DNA of 33,978 bases from Minisyncoccota bacterium (GTDB lineage Bacteria > Patescibacteriota > Minisyncoccia > Phycocordibacterales > UBA9973), in NCBI GenBank assembly GCA_025453495.1, contig JALOQM010000007.1, forward strand, positions 1-33,978, given 5' to 3'. Made by a program: the position numbers and the translations under genes. The notes under the pieces are model-generated. The model saw nothing but the letters and a program-made list of their open reading frames with translations. It was not told where the DNA came from and searched no databases. Positions within the stretch are counted from its first letter, which is position 1. Each line of letters starts with the position of its first letter. This document shows, in pieces, positions 10,045 through 23,153 of the stretch.

Positions 10045-11787
10045 ATGCAGATACTTTTTTCTTACCTCAAAAAACATTGGAAACTATGCCTCGTAGTTCT
10101 CTCCCTCGCAGTAATCAATCAGACGTTCTCGCTGCTTGATCCGCTGGTTTTTCGCCATATTATCGATGAGTATATAGTTAATGTAAGTGTGTACACACGA
10201 GCCGAATTTGTCCGGGGAGTAGTTTCTCTTCTCGGTCTTTCTATTGCTGTCGCATTTGTCTCAAGAGTAGCAAAGAATTTCCAGGAATATTATCTCAATA
10301 CCATCACTCAGCGAGTTGGCGCTCGCATGTACAATGATGGTGTCGAGCATTCACTTGCGCTTCCGTATGCTGTATTTGAAGATCAGCGTAGCGGTGAGAC
10401 ACTTGGGACACTGCAGAAAGTCCGCTCCTCAAGTGAGACACTTCTCGCGTCTTTCATCAATATTGTATTTGTCTCACTCATTGGCTTTTTATTTGTCACG
10501 ATATACGCGTGGTATATCTACTGGGGTGTGGCACTTGTGTATGCGCTGACAGTCCCAATCATTGGAATACTGAGCTATGTACTGACAGGTAAGATAAAAA
10601 AGATACAAAAGACAATTCTTGCCGAGACAACGGCTCTTGCTGGATCGACGACAGAATCACTTCGCAATATTGAGCTTGTCAAAAGTCTCGGTCTTATCGG
10701 ACAGGAAGTAGGGCGTCTGCAGAGTACTACAGAGAGTATCCTTACACTTGAGCTCAAGAAGCTTCGCTATGTTCGGAGTATCAGTTTTGTTCAAGGGACA
10801 GCTATCAATTTACTTCGCGCTGCTATTGTCGGTTTTCTTCTCTACCTTATTTTTACTCAAACTATTACCTACGGAGAATTTTTCGCGCTCTATATCTATT
10901 CGTTTTTTATCTTTACGCCACTTCAGGAGCTTGGCACAATCATTAATAATTATCGCGAAGCAGAAGCAGCTCTTGAGCGATTTGGCGAGATTATGGCAAC
11001 ACCGCGTGAGCCAATACCAAAAGATGCAAAAAAGATCAGTCACGTAGATCAATTATCATTTATCTCAGTATCTTTCCGATATCCAAGTGCCGTCGGTAGC
11101 GCACTTGAAGATATCTCATTTTCTGCAAAAGCAGGGGAGACAATTGCATTTGTCGGACCGTCCGGTTCAGGTAAGACAAGCCTGGTGAAGCTTCTCGTGG
11201 GTCTCTATACGCCAAGTCAAGGCAGTGTCCGATACAACACTATTCGAGCAGAAGAGATCGATATGAATGCACTGCGTGCGCAGTTTGGATTTGTGACACA
11301 GGATACACAGCTCTTTGCTGGATCAATTCGTGATAACTTACGTTTCGTTAATCCACAAGCGACAGATGCCGAGTGTCATGAAGCGCTGACTAAAGCTGCT
11401 GCTGGCCCACTGCTTGCCCGTGCAAATCAAGGGCTCGATACGTTGATTGGTGAAGGAGGAGTCAAAGTCTCAGGTGGCGAGAAACAGCGTTTATCGATTG
11501 CAAGAGCGCTGCTTCGCAAACCAACTATGCTTATCTTTGATGAAGCGACATCGGCGCTTGATTCAATTACAGAAGAAGAGATTACAAAGACAATACGTGA
11601 TGTCTCGGCTATCGATTCACGTATTACAGTGCTTATCGCGCATCGACTCTCGACTATTATGCACGCCGATCGTATCTACGTTCTCGAAAAAGGAAAGATC
11701 GTGGAGACAGGCACGCATGAGGCATTGCTTGCTGAAAAAGGCCTCTACTTTGCAATGTGGCGCCAACAGATAGGCGAGCGTGTGTAA
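10045..11787 (+). CDS. ABC transporter, ATP-binding/permease (exporter type)
   Basis: TM domain plus FVGPSGSGKTSLVKLL, GVKVSGGEKQRLSIARALL, LIFDEATSALDS, LIAHRLSTI. Confidence 0.96.
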   Translation: MQILFSYLKKHWKLCLVVLSLAVINQTFSLLDPLVFRHIIDEYIVNVSVYTRAEFVRGVVSLLGLSIAVAFVSRVAKNFQEYYLNTITQRVGARMYNDGVEHSLALPYAVFEDQRSGETLGTLQKVRSSSETLLASFINIVFVSLIGFLFVTIYAWYIYWGVALVYALTVPIIGILSYVLTGKIKKIQKTILAETTALAGSTTESLRNIELVKSLGLIGQEVGRLQSTTESILTLELKKLRYVRSISFVQGTAINLLRAAIVGFLLYLIFTQTITYGEFFALYIYSFFIFTPLQELGTIINNYREAEAALERFGEIMATPREPIPKDAKKISHVDQLSFISVSFRYPSAVGSALEDISFSAKAGETIAFVGPSGSGKTSLVKLLVGLYTPSQGSVRYNTIRAEEIDMNALRAQFGFVTQDTQLFAGSIRDNLRFVNPQATDAECHEALTKAAAGPLLARANQGLDTLIGEGGVKVSGGEKQRLSIARALLRKPTMLIFDEATSALDSITEEEITKTIRDVSAIDSRITVLIAHRLSTIMHADRIYVLEKGKIVETGTHEALLAEKGLYFAMWRQQIGERV

Positions 11788-14537: not shown

Positions 14538-14780
14538 ATGAGTACGTCAGCGAAAAAGTTGGGTGTTAACATCCGAAAGATACGAGAAGAAAAAGGTATG
14601 ATGCAAGTAGATTTATGTAGAAAGCTTGAGGTTGACCGTGCGTATATAAGCAATATTGAAAATGGAAACGTTGTTGAAGACGGAACACATGCTGCATTAT
14701 TAGGAAAAGGTGGCAAATATGCAACACTTTGGAGTATGCAAGCGGGAGGGTTCTTGCCAAGTGAAATTGAAGAACAGTAG
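14538..14780 (+). pseudogene. Fusion ORF: N-terminal XRE-type HTH joined to the C-terminal tail of an ABC exporter NBD
   Basis: MSTSAKKLGVNIRKIREEKGMMQVDLCRKLEVDRAYISNIENGN (HTH_3) runs directly into VVEDGTHAALLGKGGKYATLWSMQAGGFLPSEIEEQ, a typical ABC exporter C-terminus (compare IVETGTHEALLAEKGLYFAMWRQQ at the end of 10045..11787). Confidence 0.75.
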
Positions 14781-14804: not shown

Positions 14805-15257
14805 TTATTCTAAACTAATCTTCTTCTGACTCAACAGGATCTTGCTCTTCAAACATCCGAGCAATTCGCGCTTTTCAAGGTTCGATCCCTCCTTCAAGAC
14901 ATACTTTGCATATCCTCGAATATCTATACTCGGTACAGCGATCTTATCCTTGGTTTCAACAAAGAGCTTCTGCATCTTCAAGAATCGTTCGACATCGGCT
15001 TTTATTCGCTCTTTGACTTCGATCTCATTGAGATTGATCTTGTCGATCAGCTCTTCAAACTGTTTGAGTATTTCTTTCTCTTCCGTGTAGCCACATTTAC
15101 AATCAGCCCCTCTGGCTTTTGTGCATCCGTTGTAGACAAATCGTTGGACTGTTCCATTTTTATACTTCTTGAATTTCCCATCAGCAGATATGCCCGATCC
15201 ACATAGTCCGCAGACCATCATCTTCGTGAAAGCGAATTCCTTTCCCTCGATTCGCAA
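14805..15257 (-). pseudogene. C-terminal fragment of a large serine recombinase (zinc-ribbon plus coiled coil)
   Basis: KEFAFTKMMVCGLCGSGISADGKFKKYKNGTVQRFVYNGCTKARGADCKCGYTEEKEIL...GYAKYVLKEGSNLEKRELLGCLKSKI; no resolvase N-terminal catalytic domain present. Confidence 0.8.
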
Positions 15258-16975: not shown

Positions 16976-16992
16976 ATGCAAGTTAATTGCAT
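16976..16992. promoter_or_regulatory. Putative Fur-family operator, copy 1 (upstream of the radical SAM gene)
   Basis: ATGCAA-gttaa-TTGCAT; a further TGCAATTGCA dyad lies just upstream at 16940-16949. Confidence 0.75.
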
Positions 16993-17028
16993 ATTAACTG
17001 TTCTTTAACAAACAAAAAAAATACAAAG

Positions 17029-18645
17029 ATGATACAAAAAATTAGTGAAACACGCTCGTTAATTCTTAATCCCTTAACAGGCGCCATGTTGTTGGTAAAT
17101 AACGATTGGTGGCAAAAGCTCGGACTATCTTGGGTTGAAAAACCTATAGCGATAGACACTATTCCTTCTTGTGGTTGCGATTACAAACTCCTTAAAGGTG
17201 AAGTAGGACGACATCCATCTGGACTTGTGCAGTGTACTCCAAACAGTTGCTCAGAAATTGAATGGACTACTCTTAAGCAACTTGGCTTTTTTTTAACAAA
17301 GAGCAACTACCAAGAGAGACTAAGTGCAATTAGCGCTTTTGCTGAAACTTTCAAGAAAAAACGTCAAACGACTTTTTTTGTTACACCAGATACACAATCG
17401 AAAGGTTGTCCGCTGTCTTGCGTTTACTGTTTTCAGAAGGATGCCGATGGTAAAGAAAAGAAACTCCTCCAAAAAGGATCAGTAAAAGAAATCGAGAATT
17501 TTATTTACTGGTATCAAAAAGAAAATGGTTTATCGAATGAAGGTATTTGTATTCAGCTTTTCGGTGGGGAACCATTTCAAACAAAATTTCGTCCATTTTG
17601 GTATGAAATACTTGAAATTGTGCGAAAAAATCAATGGTGTTGGGCTGCAGTCACATCTGGTGCAACAATTCAAAAAGAAGATATTGTAATGATAAAAGAA
17701 TATCAGCAGTATAATCTTCAAGAGTTGAATATTACACTTGATGGTCTTGAACAAGAGCACAACAATCTTCGCCCATTTAAGGGTGGTAATGGTACATGGC
17801 AAACAATTGTATCAAATATTACCTCTTTGCTTGAAGAAGGAGTACCAGTACTAGTAAAAACAAATTTTGGTGTAAACAACATTACCACGTACCCACAGTT
17901 TCTTGATTTTGTGAAAAACCAAACAAAATGGAGAGATGGTGATCTTGTTCTTATGACCAATATTATCCAATCTTTTGGTAACATTAGTACTAAAGGCTCT
18001 AAGGGGACTGAAGACGCATTAATACTTGCTTTGTGTGATATTTTCTCGCGTACTGAGTATCAATGCTTTCTTCCTATCTTAAGACTTGAGGGTAAGAAGC
18101 TAACTGGGTATCTTGCTCATGTATTGGGTCCACAGGTTATCCGAGAAGCACATGTTGTCCGTAATGGAAAAGTTGTTTTTGACAATTACCCCTATCAGGG
18201 TTTTTGTAATCCTACAAAGGGTACTAGTTTTAATATTGATCCAGACGGAGTGATGCGGGCTTGCAATTGGATGGATGGACAAAAAGGCTTTGAAGAAATG
18301 TCAGTGTTTGACCCAAGTTCCTGGAAAACACGCAGTCGCTACTTTAATCCTATATCAGAAAATCCAATATGTGCGACTTGTGATATCTCTACTATCTGTG
18401 GTGGTGGTTGCGCAATCGATATTAAAAAAAAGGGCGATAATCAAGAGTATTATTTAGGGTGTCGTGAAGACCATTATAATATCATACGTTCATTCATTGA
18501 TGGGTGTATGGTTCGTGGGTGGATTGACACAAATCTGGATGATAAAAACTTCAAAGTTTTGTCAGAAGGATTTAATTTCGACTACAGGTATTACAATCGT
18601 GCTTTTCTAGAAACGAGGATTAGTCTTCCTGGATCATCTGCTTAA
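17029..18645 (+). CDS. Radical SAM protein with SPASM-like C-terminal cysteine cluster
   Basis: CPLSCVYC (CX3CX2C), GICIQLFGGEPF, NITLDGLEQEHNNLRPFKGG; C-terminal FCNPTKGTSFNIDPDGVMRACNW...CATCDISTICGGGCAID...GCREDHY. Confidence 0.92.
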   Translation: MIQKISETRSLILNPLTGAMLLVNNDWWQKLGLSWVEKPIAIDTIPSCGCDYKLLKGEVGRHPSGLVQCTPNSCSEIEWTTLKQLGFFLTKSNYQERLSAISAFAETFKKKRQTTFFVTPDTQSKGCPLSCVYCFQKDADGKEKKLLQKGSVKEIENFIYWYQKENGLSNEGICIQLFGGEPFQTKFRPFWYEILEIVRKNQWCWAAVTSGATIQKEDIVMIKEYQQYNLQELNITLDGLEQEHNNLRPFKGGNGTWQTIVSNITSLLEEGVPVLVKTNFGVNNITTYPQFLDFVKNQTKWRDGDLVLMTNIIQSFGNISTKGSKGTEDALILALCDIFSRTEYQCFLPILRLEGKKLTGYLAHVLGPQVIREAHVVRNGKVVFDNYPYQGFCNPTKGTSFNIDPDGVMRACNWMDGQKGFEEMSVFDPSSWKTRSRYFNPISENPICATCDISTICGGGCAIDIKKKGDNQEYYLGCREDHYNIIRSFIDGCMVRGWIDTNLDDKNFKVLSEGFNFDYRYYNRAFLETRISLPGSSA

Positions 18646-18658
18646 GAATCAATAGCTT

Positions 18659-18697
18659 TACCCAAATGCAAGACTTTTGCATTTGGGTATTTTTTAT
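18659..18697. terminator. Intrinsic terminator between the convergent radical SAM and ATPase genes; contains operator copy 2
   Basis: TACCCAAATGCAA gactt TTGCATTTGGGTA, perfect 13-bp stem followed by TTTTTT. Its inner 17 bp are ATGCAA-gactt-TTGCAT. Confidence 0.85.
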
Positions 18698-18708
18698 AAT
18701 TGAGTTAC

Positions 18709-19653
18709 TTACAAAAAGGCAAGCATGTTAAATTCAGGATCTATCTGGTCTTGTAGTTGTAAATGTTTTTCTTTTGAAGCTTTTTTATTATGAAAATACA
18801 AAAGATTTTTATAAAATTTTTCCCAATTTTTTGTATGAGTTTGTATGTGAGTATGTATTTTCTCTAATTCTGTGCGTGTTTCTTTTTCTATTTCTCCAAA
18901 AGAGATATATTCACCTCGTTCTGTTTTACGTATGTATGAAGATAAGGGAAATACAGCTATGGGCTTTTGATCAATGTTTTTTTCTATATACTCTAGTTCT
19001 TCTTGAGTAGTAATTTTATTTGCTATAGGATAAATCATTGCTTCTATATTAGTACTTTTTGCAATACGTATATAATCATTGAAGACACTTAGAGACTTAG
19101 CAGTCGGCTCTACAACTATATAGATAATGTCATAACTAACAAACATGCCAGAAGCAAGTGTGTCAATGCCAGCAGTCAAATCAACGACTACATATTCGTT
19201 TTCTTTATCAATTAGATGATTAAGGTATATTTCAGCTCCAGACATGTTTGCGTGATAGCATTGTTCGCCGAGCGTTTCGTCTTGTGGTATGCCAACACGC
19301 AAAAGCCTGATACCATTTTTTTGTATTTCAAAACTTTTTAAAACCGCATGCTCTTCACTATATTTAATAAGTGTCGAGCCAGTTCCTGGAGGGGTTGTTC
19401 TTTTGAATTGAATAGTATTTTGCAGTCTTGGATTTGTGCCTTTATATATAGAAGAAAGTAGTTCGATCTGTGTTCCTAGTGGCGGTATAGATTCGATTTC
19501 ATCTCTAGTAAAACCGACTGACTCACCAAGATGTTGGTTGATGTCACTATCAATAGCAATGACTGGTTGATTGCTATATGCAAGATATTTGATAAAAAGA
19601 GAGGCGATAGTTGTTTTACCGCTTCCACCTTTGCCTACAAATCCTATTTTCAT
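18709..19653 (-). CDS. CooC/MinD-like P-loop ATPase (SIMIBI class)
   Basis: MKIGFVGKGGSGKTTIASLFIKYLA (deviant Walker A), VIAIDSDINQHLGESVG, EYVVVDLTAGIDTLASGMFVSYDIIYIVVEPTAKSL. Confidence 0.88.
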   Translation of the reverse strand: MKIGFVGKGGSGKTTIASLFIKYLAYSNQPVIAIDSDINQHLGESVGFTRDEIESIPPLGTQIELLSSIYKGTNPRLQNTIQFKRTTPPGTGSTLIKYSEEHAVLKSFEIQKNGIRLLRVGIPQDETLGEQCYHANMSGAEIYLNHLIDKENEYVVVDLTAGIDTLASGMFVSYDIIYIVVEPTAKSLSVFNDYIRIAKSTNIEAMIYPIANKITTQEELEYIEKNIDQKPIAVFPLSSYIRKTERGEYISFGEIEKETRTELEKIHTHIQTHTKNWEKFYKNLLYFHNKKASKEKHLQLQDQIDPEFNMLAFL

Positions 19654-19682
19654 AAGCAAAATATATAATTATATTGTAATAT

Positions 19683-19699
19683 ATGCAAATAAATTGCAT
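19683..19699. promoter_or_regulatory. Putative Fur-family operator, copy 3 (upstream of the ATPase gene)
   Basis: ATGCAA-ataaa-TTGCAT, 29 bp upstream of the ATG. An outer dyad ATTGTA (19673-19678) / TACAAT (19703-19708) surrounds it. Confidence 0.8.
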
Positions 19700-19861
19700 T
19701 TATACAATTTATTTGGATCAATATATACCAAATTAAGAAAACTGAAAAATAGTAATTTGAAATCTATAGAAAGATCTAGTTATTTATTTTAATATAAAAG
19801 TTTGTACTCACTTGTTCGCTATTTGTTGTGCATATCGAGATTCTGGAATACACTATTTTAT

Positions 19862-20758
19862 ATGAATAAAAAGAATATATATTTGCTTGGTATAGCATTG
19901 TGTCTGTATGTCATTGCAGTTGGTATTACCTACTTCAATGGTCGTTCTTTCTCCAAACGAAGGGTACTGACTGATTCAGTGCTCAATACAGTTATGGTAT
20001 CTGACCTTGAAGTTGCAGGATTTATCGCAACAGTAGTCGCACAACAAAGTCCACTTCTTGCTGATAGCGAGAAGCAGGCAATATCCCAGAATTATTTTGG
20101 AGCACCACTTGCCACTGCTCCACGTGTCCACACGGTTACCGCAGAAGAAATCAGTTGTGAGAAAAACGTACTAGATACCACAACTCCACGCTGTAGTGTG
20201 CGTTTTGATAGAACTTCTATCCAATTATCTGATGAAGATGCACTTGGTATGTACAGTGCGCTCAAGAAAGCAGGAATTGTCGAGTATGTGACAGATGATA
20301 TAGCCCTGATTACAGTGCAGCCTCTCACTTGTGTTGTCGATGACATAAAAGTGCAATCTTCACCAGGCGATAACATAGAAGGTTTCTCATGTCTCCTACA
20401 CACCGCACAGCAAGTAGTAAGTACAGCAGAAAAAATCAGAAGGTATGAACAGTGCGTTTTTTCTATAGGAAACAAAGAATACTTCGTATCACCATGTACG
20501 GTTGATGCTTCTTTTGGTGGTGTCATTAGTGTCGGGGTAGCAGAAGGTGATAGCGTGACTTCTGCAAATCCATTTTTTTATTTTACCACTGGCTCAACAC
20601 CTGATGAATCGACAGCGACCTGGAATAGAGCAGAAGAATCTCGTCTTCGAGCAGATGTACCACTTCCAGGCGTGTGGATGTATGCAAATGAATGCATAGC
20701 AAGCACTGAATGGAAACTCTGTTTCCCTGAAGATATCTCAAGCATGCTCAAGCAGTAA
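19862..20758 (+). CDS. Membrane-anchored hypothetical protein
   Basis: N-terminal TM segment MNKKNIYLLGIALCLYVIAVGITYF; long coding ORF, no family recognised. Confidence 0.75.
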   Translation: MNKKNIYLLGIALCLYVIAVGITYFNGRSFSKRRVLTDSVLNTVMVSDLEVAGFIATVVAQQSPLLADSEKQAISQNYFGAPLATAPRVHTVTAEEISCEKNVLDTTTPRCSVRFDRTSIQLSDEDALGMYSALKKAGIVEYVTDDIALITVQPLTCVVDDIKVQSSPGDNIEGFSCLLHTAQQVVSTAEKIRRYEQCVFSIGNKEYFVSPCTVDASFGGVISVGVAEGDSVTSANPFFYFTTGSTPDESTATWNRAEESRLRADVPLPGVWMYANECIASTEWKLCFPEDISSMLKQ

Positions 20759-20844
20759 GACATAGTAGTAGAGAAATACTTGCTGTATCCAGTTTTTCTT
20801 GTTGCTTACTGAAACTAAAAATAGCCCAGGACTGTTACTACTAC

Positions 20845-21468
20845 TTACATCCCATACGGAAACTTTTCTAAGTCAAATGGTTTTTCGGCACGCATCTGCG
20901 AGAGATATGTTGCATAAGTGATGAGCTCATCAAGCGAATGAGTGATTTTGCCGTGGATAGAGACGTCTTCTTTGCTTTCTTGATTGGGAATATCGCTGTT
21001 GCAGACAGTATTGACGTTTCGCACGATGACATGATGCGGAATATATATAATATGAGTATTTTTATAACTACCACTACGAAGTTCTGCTATGGGATATGCA
21101 CCATTGGTTGCATTAGCGGTTGTTGAAACAAGTAATGCTGGTTTGTGTGCTAATTCTGTATCAACATACATAAAAAAGTTTTTAAGCATTGGCGAAGCGG
21201 TGCCATTCCATTCGGGGGTGATGAATACAAATCCATCACTGGTTGCGAGATGCTCTGAAAGTGGTTTCCATAGCGATTGAAGCTCTGGAGTATCTTCAAT
21301 TGTATCGTCAAAAAACGGCAATCCATAGCTAACTAGATCCACATGGACGCTTTCTAAGGGTATATTTTCAGAAATTGCTTTACGATCAAGAAGTACCTTG
21401 ATCGTCTTTCCAATTTTATTCGTCTGCGACTCTCGTCGCATAGAAGAAGAAATGATGGTTATTTTCAT
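20845..21468 (-). CDS. NADPH-dependent FMN reductase-like (flavodoxin-fold) protein
   Basis: MKITIISSSMRRESQTNKIGKTI...DGFVFITPEWNGTASPMLKNFFMYV...KPALLVSTTANATNG. Confidence 0.9.
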   Translation of the reverse strand: MKITIISSSMRRESQTNKIGKTIKVLLDRKAISENIPLESVHVDLVSYGLPFFDDTIEDTPELQSLWKPLSEHLATSDGFVFITPEWNGTASPMLKNFFMYVDTELAHKPALLVSTTANATNGAYPIAELRSGSYKNTHIIYIPHHVIVRNVNTVCNSDIPNQESKEDVSIHGKITHSLDELITYATYLSQMRAEKPFDLEKFPYGM

Positions 21469-21567
21469 GTGCTAAGTATAGCTGTTTATTTTTATAAAAC
21501 TATACTTCTATACTTTAGCAACAAAAGACCGTAGGAGTAAAGCTATTTTTGCGATAAAATAAGAAAT

Positions 21568-22716
21568 ATGAAAAAAATAGTAGCTATTTTGGCTATTGTA
21601 CTGCTTGCGGGTGGATGGCTTGCACTGCGTCACCAGTCAACACAAAATGGTCAGATCAGAGTAAAAGTACTAGAGGTACTTGCAAGCGGACAGCAAAATC
21701 CTTTTGAAGGTGGTCATACCTATGAGACGCAGACACTCAAACTACACATCCTCACTGGAGCGGAAAAAGGAGAGGTTATTGAAATGTATAACGACTATGT
21801 GATGCTCAAAGCCGGTGATAGAGCATTTGTCTCAAAAGTAGTACTTGACGACGGAGAGCGCTACACATTGACTGAACCGGACCGCCTCCCATTGATGTAC
21901 TTTCTCATGATTGTTTTTATTGCCCTTGTTGTCGTATTTGGTGGGATACAAGGTGTGCGCGGATTGCTTGCACTTGGAGGGAGTCTTGTTTTGATCGGCT
22001 ATTTGCTTCTGCCAGGAATTCTCGAAGGGTATCCGATTTTATTGGTGACAATCGGCGTGTCTGCACTCATCATCATTCTCGGTTCATATGTGACGCATGG
22101 ATTCAACAAGACGACGACTGCTGCAGTCATTGGAATGATCATTACGATTACGATCACCGGCATCGCATCATATCTTGTGGTGGATGCTGCGCGACTCAAC
22201 GGCATCTCGACTGAAGAAGATTTTTATCTGGTTAGAGCGCTTGCAGGAAATATCGATCTCATGGGATTACTGCTCGGTGGAATGGTGATCGGATTGCTTG
22301 GCGTGCTCTATGACGCGGCAATTAGTCAAGCAGTTGCAGTCGAAGAATTACACCATGTTGCGCCGCATCTTGATCGAAAGATGATATTTGCTCGTGCAAT
22401 CCGAATCGGACGTGAACACATTGGCGCGCTTGTAGATACTATCGCAATTGCCTATGTCGGCGTATCGCTTCCGATTATCCTTCTCTTTATGGCTTCTGTT
22501 GATCTTCCATTTGCCCAGATTGCGAATCGGCAATTTTTCGCAACTGAGATCATCCGCATCCTTATGGCAAGTATTGGACTTGTACTTGCAGTGCCGATCA
22601 CAACTGCTATATCTGCGTGGATGCTCATGAAAGAAAAGAAAGAACCAGTTTCAGTAGAGACAATAGAGCAAGAAAAAAAGGCATTACAGCATTTCCATCA
22701 TCACCATCACCAATAA
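21568..22716 (+). CDS. YibE/F-like family membrane protein with a His-rich C-terminal tail
   Basis: QTLKLHILTGAEKGEVIEMYNDYVMLKAGDRAFV..., multiple TM segments, GGMVIGLLGVLYDAAISQAVAVEEL; ends HFHHHHHQ*. Confidence 0.85.
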   Translation: MKKIVAILAIVLLAGGWLALRHQSTQNGQIRVKVLEVLASGQQNPFEGGHTYETQTLKLHILTGAEKGEVIEMYNDYVMLKAGDRAFVSKVVLDDGERYTLTEPDRLPLMYFLMIVFIALVVVFGGIQGVRGLLALGGSLVLIGYLLLPGILEGYPILLVTIGVSALIIILGSYVTHGFNKTTTAAVIGMIITITITGIASYLVVDAARLNGISTEEDFYLVRALAGNIDLMGLLLGGMVIGLLGVLYDAAISQAVAVEELHHVAPHLDRKMIFARAIRIGREHIGALVDTIAIAYVGVSLPIILLFMASVDLPFAQIANRQFFATEIIRILMASIGLVLAVPITTAISAWMLMKEKKEPVSVETIEQEKKALQHFHHHHHQ

Positions 22717-22803
22717 GTTGATTCTGTTTTGAAGTTTTTTTGATTAAAGCATTTTGCTATGAATAGAGGAGGGTACTTTACTCAGGATACTTTTTAGGTT
22801 ATT

Positions 22804-22820
22804 ATGCAATATACTTGCAT
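22804..22820. promoter_or_regulatory. Putative Fur-family operator, copy 4 (abuts the Fur-family gene start)
   Basis: ATGCAA-tatac-TTGCAT, ending 3 bp before the ATG at 22824. Confidence 0.8.
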
Positions 22821-22823
22821 AAT

Positions 22824-23153
22824 ATGAGAACAAATATACACAAAGAACAAATAATGAAATTACTCAAAAAGAAGCATCTTTTGAGTATCGCTCAAATTCA
22901 CAAAGCATTACCTGATGCGGACTATTCGACAGTGTTTCGTAACGTAGAGCAGTTGCTAAAAGCAAAAGAGATAAAAAGAGTCGTTGTAGACAATAAGTCT
23001 GTCGTATATGAATCATCTCATGAAAGTCACGACCATTTTATCTGCAATGATTGTGGCCTTATCGAGTCTATAGATATCCCGCATGTATCTATACAAGGAA
23101 GAAAAGTCGATGATGTCACCGTACGAGGTATGTGTGATGAGTGCAGTAAATAA
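22824..23153 (+). CDS. Fur-family metalloregulator (short form)
   Basis: MRTNIHKEQIMKLLKKKHLLSIAQIHKALPDADYSTVFRNVEQLLKAKEIKRVVVDNKSVVYESSHESHDHFICNDCGLIESID...VRGMCDECSK: winged helix, HDHFIC.DCG and a C-terminal CxxC. Confidence 0.9.
   Translation: MRTNIHKEQIMKLLKKKHLLSIAQIHKALPDADYSTVFRNVEQLLKAKEIKRVVVDNKSVVYESSHESHDHFICNDCGLIESIDIPHVSIQGRKVDDVTVRGMCDECSK

Follow-up and report, generated by a model that had tools for sequence, protein, structure and literature searches.

Genes and palindromes at the locus

We analysed a stretch of 33,978 nucleotides, here called the window, from a Minisyncoccota bacterium (GTDB lineage Patescibacteriota; Minisyncoccia; Phycocordibacterales; UBA9973; contig JALOQM010000007.1 of assembly GCA_025453495.1), in which an exact palindrome, ATGCAA-N5-TTGCAT, recurs around three genes. 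These encode a radical S-adenosylmethionine (SAM)/SPASM enzyme of 538 amino acids (17029..18645, plus strand; PF04055, E 3e-11; SPASM model TIGR04085 above its cut-off), a CooC-like ATPase of the SIMIBI/MinD class with 314 amino acids and the deviant Walker A motif GKGGSGKTT (18709..19653, minus strand, with its ATG at 19653), and a Fur-family regulator of 109 amino acids (22824..23153, plus strand; PF01475, E 2e-12).

The window contains four exact matches, at 16976-16992, 18666-18682, 19683-19699 and 22804-22820, and all four, with their spacers, agree with an earlier sequence-only reading of this DNA. Dinucleotide shuffles gave a mean of 0.01 matches per window, and none of 100 shuffles reached four. 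The whole genome (685 kb in 12 contigs, ~97% complete) contains only five exact matches, the fifth lying at 4435-4451 of contig C6, 30 bp before the start of a membrane-protein gene. Both the reversed control and the palindrome with exactly one mismatch returned no site in the 685-kb genome. The shuffles speak against an AT-rich region having acquired four palindromes by coincidence, and conservation in other genomes refutes it; we give it practically no credence; only the copy at 18666, discussed below, speaks for it.

Apart from that copy, every exact site in the genome lies 3-36 bp 5' of a start codon. The operator of the radical SAM gene (16976..16992, no strand assigned) stands 36 bp before the ATG at 17029, and that of the ATPase gene (19683..19699, no strand assigned) 29 bp before its start, followed by a degenerate second copy with two mismatches (19702-19718). 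The operator of the Fur-family gene (22804..22820, no strand assigned) reads ATTATGCAA-TATAC-TTGCATAAT in full, ends 3 bp before the ATG at 22824 and overlaps the presumed -10 region. The distances of 29 bp and 3 bp given earlier hold with corrected gene starts. A scan for sigma-70 promoters gave matches no more numerous than in shuffles.

The fourth copy lies within the terminator common to the convergent radical SAM and ATPase genes (18659..18695, no strand assigned), where it forms the stem of a rho-independent terminator (13-bp stem, -18.7 kcal/mol, z -5, then TTTTTT). Its spacer, GACTT, lacks both the inner T7 and the inner A9, one or both of which are present in 34 of 34 operators of the relatives' footprint described below. 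The terminator at the equivalent place in a second genome (locus L053) has a different stem (ACGGAATGC) and is not conserved as an operator there. On these three grounds we rejected the 18666 copy as an operator and, because it is the stem of a strong terminator, do not count it with the other three. The sequence-only reading had grouped all four palindromes as candidate operators, while placing the second at the radical SAM/ATPase terminator; those at 16976, 19683 and 22804 stand and the one at 18666 falls. We take it that this terminator matches the operator palindrome by descent or by chance.

The terminator copy, the foldable copy in the Fur leader (z -3.2) and a nearby serine-recombinase remnant would all suit an alternative in which the palindromes are RNA hairpins or terminators, dispersed repeats or recombination sites. 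However, the copy in the radical SAM leader folds no better than shuffles (z -0.2), and across families the sites keep a fixed spacing of 5 and their position before the start while the spacer sequence varies. We find this alternative scarcely credible, and regard the palindromes at 16976, 19683 and 22804 as very probably Fur-family operators.

Conservation of the operator among relatives

Loci for a footprint across relatives were chosen by protein similarity, not by motif, and exact matches to the core TGCRA-N5-TYGCA were counted from -200 to +20 of each start. The core occurs upstream of 22 of 34 Fur-family starts (0.08 in shuffled upstream regions) and 12 of 27 CooC-like ATPase starts (0.02 in shuffles); spacers of 3, 4, 6, 7 or 8 instead of 5 gave 0-1 matches at the same starts. 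The consensus over 34 sites, aTGCRAwTnAwTYGCAt, has AT-rich flanks, an inner T and an inner A at 88%, and a spacer that is otherwise variable in sequence and fixed at 5 in length. It forms a 7-1-7 box, the arrangement reported for a number of Zur proteins (PMC6103462). In a 148-genome sample of relatives, each other genome had 0 or 1 exact copies of the strict palindrome, so the form with 6-bp arms is enriched in the window genome, and the broader core is what is conserved. Two core sites of the window genome (C1:22007 and C6:52069) were set aside, being not just 5' of any called gene start. A variant operator, TGCGA-N5-TCGCA, is found in the upstream regions of four loci (L042, L079, L090 and L097), which suggests that the recognition code has shifted between regulator clades.

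Placement of the sites follows the genes. The palindrome stands directly before the ATG of close Fur homologues from other families of the order in genomes G110 (TTATGCAAATCACTTGCACAA), G267 (TTATGCAAGTAACTTGCATAA) and G180 (TTTTGCAATTAGATTGCAAAA), and it also precedes the close homologue in G209. An operator precedes the Fur gene of a Fur-ATPase operon in G110, G180 and G209, and the ATPases of these three genomes and of G215, which have no site of their own, are second in such an operon. Of the 26 genomes with an ATPase, 19 have a Fur-family gene as well (Fisher p 1.7e-10, uncorrected for genome kinship).

One close homologue of the radical SAM enzyme was found (66%), on the Nomurabacteria contig CALQZW010000005.1 (locus L053 of genome G836), where its gene likewise converges on that of an ATPase, 73% to that of the window. 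Upstream of this radical SAM gene, at the same place as in the window, stand an exact core and a one-mismatch site, and a core site lies 21 bp 5' of the ATPase. The gene divergent from the ATPase encodes a 166-amino-acid homologue (25%, E 5e-13) of the protein behind the fifth site of the window genome, a His-rich membrane protein of 155 amino acids with no Pfam family. In the 600 kb of G836 there are just two exact cores: one precedes the radical SAM gene, and the other separates the start of the ATPase gene from that of the membrane-protein gene. G209 has a third member of this family, whose gene diverges from the Fur-ATPase operon across a core site. The membrane protein thus adjoins an operator in all three genomes in which it was found, although in the window genome it sits on a different contig (C6) from the other three genes. 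It would be a further member of the regulon, lying beyond the window to which the sequence-only reading was confined.

That reading held that the Fur-family protein autoregulates and controls the radical SAM and ATPase genes through the palindrome, and conservation of the operator across genomes, upstream of Fur-family and ATPase homologues and of both proposed target genes in G836, supports this well at the level of sequence. The evidence linking regulator to operator is all positional, which would also suit a different, unlinked regulator that recognizes the palindromes and has the Fur-family gene merely as one target. Yet the site precedes the Fur-family genes in most footprint loci and tracks them across many families, and Fur-family boxes typically have its symmetric 7-1-7 form (PMC6103462); we consider an unlinked regulator very unlikely.

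The probable signal metal and the proteins of the proposed regulon

The regulator belongs to a short Fur clade; the order's other families have homologues at 43-57% identity. It carries the metal-ligand motifs CxxC...CxxC and HDH, the former being the structural zinc-site motif of Zur-type regulators and present as CNDC and CDEC. Neighbours of these operators in relatives include ZIP transporters (identified by Pfam in G098, G235, G265 and G284, and elsewhere by similarity to these four), ZnuA (by Pfam in G201, by similarity in G267 and G354; at locus L127 with a long His-rich loop) and COG0523 GTPases (G140 and G342, with a third following a ZIP-like gene in G129). Zur regulators typically target ZIP, ZnuABC and COG0523 (review Table 3, PMC6103462). 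The Fur gene of G836 follows a ZIP gene with a one-mismatch operator upstream. These neighbours make zinc the best-supported signal: where nickel or zinc had been proposed, zinc is now favoured. The recurrence of the same sites across the order next to zinc transporters also makes the regulon look real.

Our favoured interpretation, which we consider probable, is a Zur-like and most likely zinc-sensing regulon in which the protein encoded at 22824 represses its own gene and those of the ATPase, the radical SAM enzyme and the C6 membrane protein. As far as sequence allows us to judge, it would be a real regulon of the Zur kind in which the operator and some members are new. A metal-loaded dimer of the regulator would bind the 7-1-7 palindrome aTGCRAwTnAwTYGCAt and repress the four genes, which metal shortage would then derepress. 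The C6 membrane protein is a candidate importer, and the ATPase a candidate ATP-dependent zinc chaperone whose C-x-H motif sits where CooC binds zinc or nickel between monomers; the radical SAM enzyme may modify a peptide or protein for the low-metal state. Binding, repression, metal identity and protein roles are proposed here as what the observed motif, its positions and conservation, gene co-occurrence and protein families point to.

Several observations weigh against this interpretation. No exact site lies 5' of about one-third of the Fur-family genes and about half of the ATPase genes; the membrane-protein family was found in only three genomes and a close form of the radical SAM enzyme in only two. 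In the short Fur clade, the C-terminal His found in most relatives (HSLEFFG) is missing, which leaves room for a different metal. No exact site in the window genome precedes a ZIP, ZnuA or COG0523 gene, and the metal is thus read from relatives, in which the Fur-family proteins frequently show just ~30% identity. Nickel is conceivable because CooC handles nickel, and the core of the Streptomyces Nur box, TGCAA-N5-TTGCA, is similar to ours.

The regulon could be real but respond to nickel, manganese or iron through a Nur-, Mur- or Fur-type regulator, with the ATPase inserting nickel. Beyond the shared Nur core, the regulator has weak NCBIfam subfamily matches spread over PerR, Fur, Irr and Zur, and ZnuA-family and ZIP proteins are able to carry other metals. 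CooC, the sole close characterized relative of the ATPase, inserts nickel (PMC6006190; PMC9164220). Against another metal stands the presence of the usual Zur targets, including the ZnuA with its His-rich loop, beside the operators (PMC6103462). No carbon monoxide dehydrogenase (CODH) gene was noticed beside the ATPase among the compared neighbours, whole genomes not having been screened for nickel enzymes. We judge another metal to be unlikely, though by some distance the most serious of the alternatives.

The closest solved relative of the ATPase is CooC (3kje; E 2e-16, residues 1-249). CooC-1 binds Zn or Ni between two monomers via Cys112 and Cys114 (PMC6006190); all 28 ATPase homologues have C-x-H (CYH, CSH, CAH or CPH) aligned to this C-x-C, and the strictly conserved Cys-x-Cys site of CooC is absent from the family. 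By the tests made, the ATPase is CooC-like but not CooC, and its family may bind metal at the changed site. At least five genomes encode, directly after or near the C-x-H ATPase, a member of an uncharacterised protein family of ~230 amino acids that often starts with MCY and has no Pfam match (L111:1555-2250, L116:6707-7450, L123:5540-6235, L107:1091-1810 and L135:6119-6811); this family is a candidate client or partner of the ATPase.

In the radical SAM enzyme, both the radical SAM core, with CxxxCxxC at residues 127-134, and the SPASM domain are present. No small open reading frame near it that might encode a precursor peptide is shared with L053, except overlaps of large genes. A viperin/pVip or defence role was rejected (NCBIfam viperin 34 bits against a cut-off of 180; PADLOC 29 bits, from the shared core only), as was a viral or mobile origin (no match to a viral contig; plasmid matches were generic SPASM proteins at no more than ~25%). 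AlphaFold models of this enzyme and of the membrane protein (predicted local distance difference test (pLDDT) scores of 41 and 57) were too poor for fold searches. The rarity of the close form of the radical SAM enzyme suggests that its gene may have been gained horizontally, with which the low G+C content of 16-20 kb (34-36%) and the nearby recombinase remnant agree.

That remnant is the C-terminal piece of a serine recombinase, with a zinc-ribbon domain, at 14805-15257 of the window. A relative of this recombinase end (L104:5873-6058, 52% over 62 amino acids) lies directly 5' of the G110 Fur-ATPase operon, a hint of mobile carriage. In the open reading frame at 14538-14780, a helix-turn-helix start is fused to the C-terminal end of an ABC exporter similar to the one at 10045-11787 (44% over 41 amino acids), an apparent chimera or gene remnant.

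Just 5' of the Fur gene, a YibE/F-family membrane protein (21568..22716, plus strand; PF07907, E 2e-62) ends in a natural poly-His C-terminus, HFHHHHHHQ. Throughout the order, in 14 compared loci (the window and 13 relatives), a YibE/F gene adjoins and in some cases overlaps that of the Fur-family protein, and no operator was found at the window gene itself. The protein is possibly linked to the regulator in function and may be metal-related.

Relation to known systems

The Candidate Phyla Radiation (CPR), to which this bacterium belongs, accounts for much of bacterial diversity, and most of its members cannot be cultured. The open-access literature we searched yielded no paper that deals with metal regulation through Fur-family proteins in the CPR, with Zur in the CPR or with a CooC-type ATPase as part of a Zur regulon. 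A defined operator, aTGCRAwTnAwTYGCAt, makes the regulon readable in genomes of this CPR order and possibly of others, and it points to a candidate metal-chaperone ATPase family with C-x-H, a membrane-protein partner and an orphan radical SAM enzyme. More tentatively, and with less than even expectation, we suggest a previously undescribed CPR class of zinc chaperones: a CooC-derived C-x-H ATPase would be made under zinc starvation, controlled by a Zur-like repressor that has an operator code of its own, and one lineage would have added a radical SAM enzyme, with a modified and possibly zinc-binding product, and a new membrane importer.

Nur of Streptomyces coelicolor controls nickel uptake and superoxide dismutase, targets not seen at these loci, whereas zinc-uptake genes were. 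The proposed regulon resembles the Zur regulons of Bacillus, Streptomyces and Proteobacteria (PMC6103462), with which it has in common a Fur-family repressor, autoregulation, a 7-1-7 promoter palindrome and, in relatives, the same operators next to genes for ZIP, ZnuA and COG0523. It differs in the operator itself (TGCRAwTnAwTYGCA), in a window genome that lacks a classical target at an exact site, and in targets that include an unnamed membrane protein as well as an ATPase of the CooC type and a radical SAM/SPASM enzyme; the table of Zur regulons in the same review lists neither of the last two kinds (PMC6103462).

Among the individual members, the radical SAM enzyme shares the core, the SPASM domain and an N-terminal NPLTG/WW region with peptide maturases (geopeptide, CefB, Clo7bot and PapB), but scores far below the cut-off of all their family models. 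The ATPase resembles the COG0523 (YciC/ZagA/CobW) G3E GTPases in being a presumed nucleoside triphosphate-driven metal chaperone induced at zinc shortage, but belongs to another NTPase class (MinD/BioD-like), and it is not merely a COG0523 replacement, since the G129, G140 and G342 loci have the two next to each other under the same operators. With CooC it shares the fold class, the deviant Walker A (GKGG-x-GKTT), the match over residues 1-249 and the position of the metal motif; it differs from CooC in its C-x-H, in having no CODH neighbour among those seen, and in its links to Fur-family operators and zinc importers.

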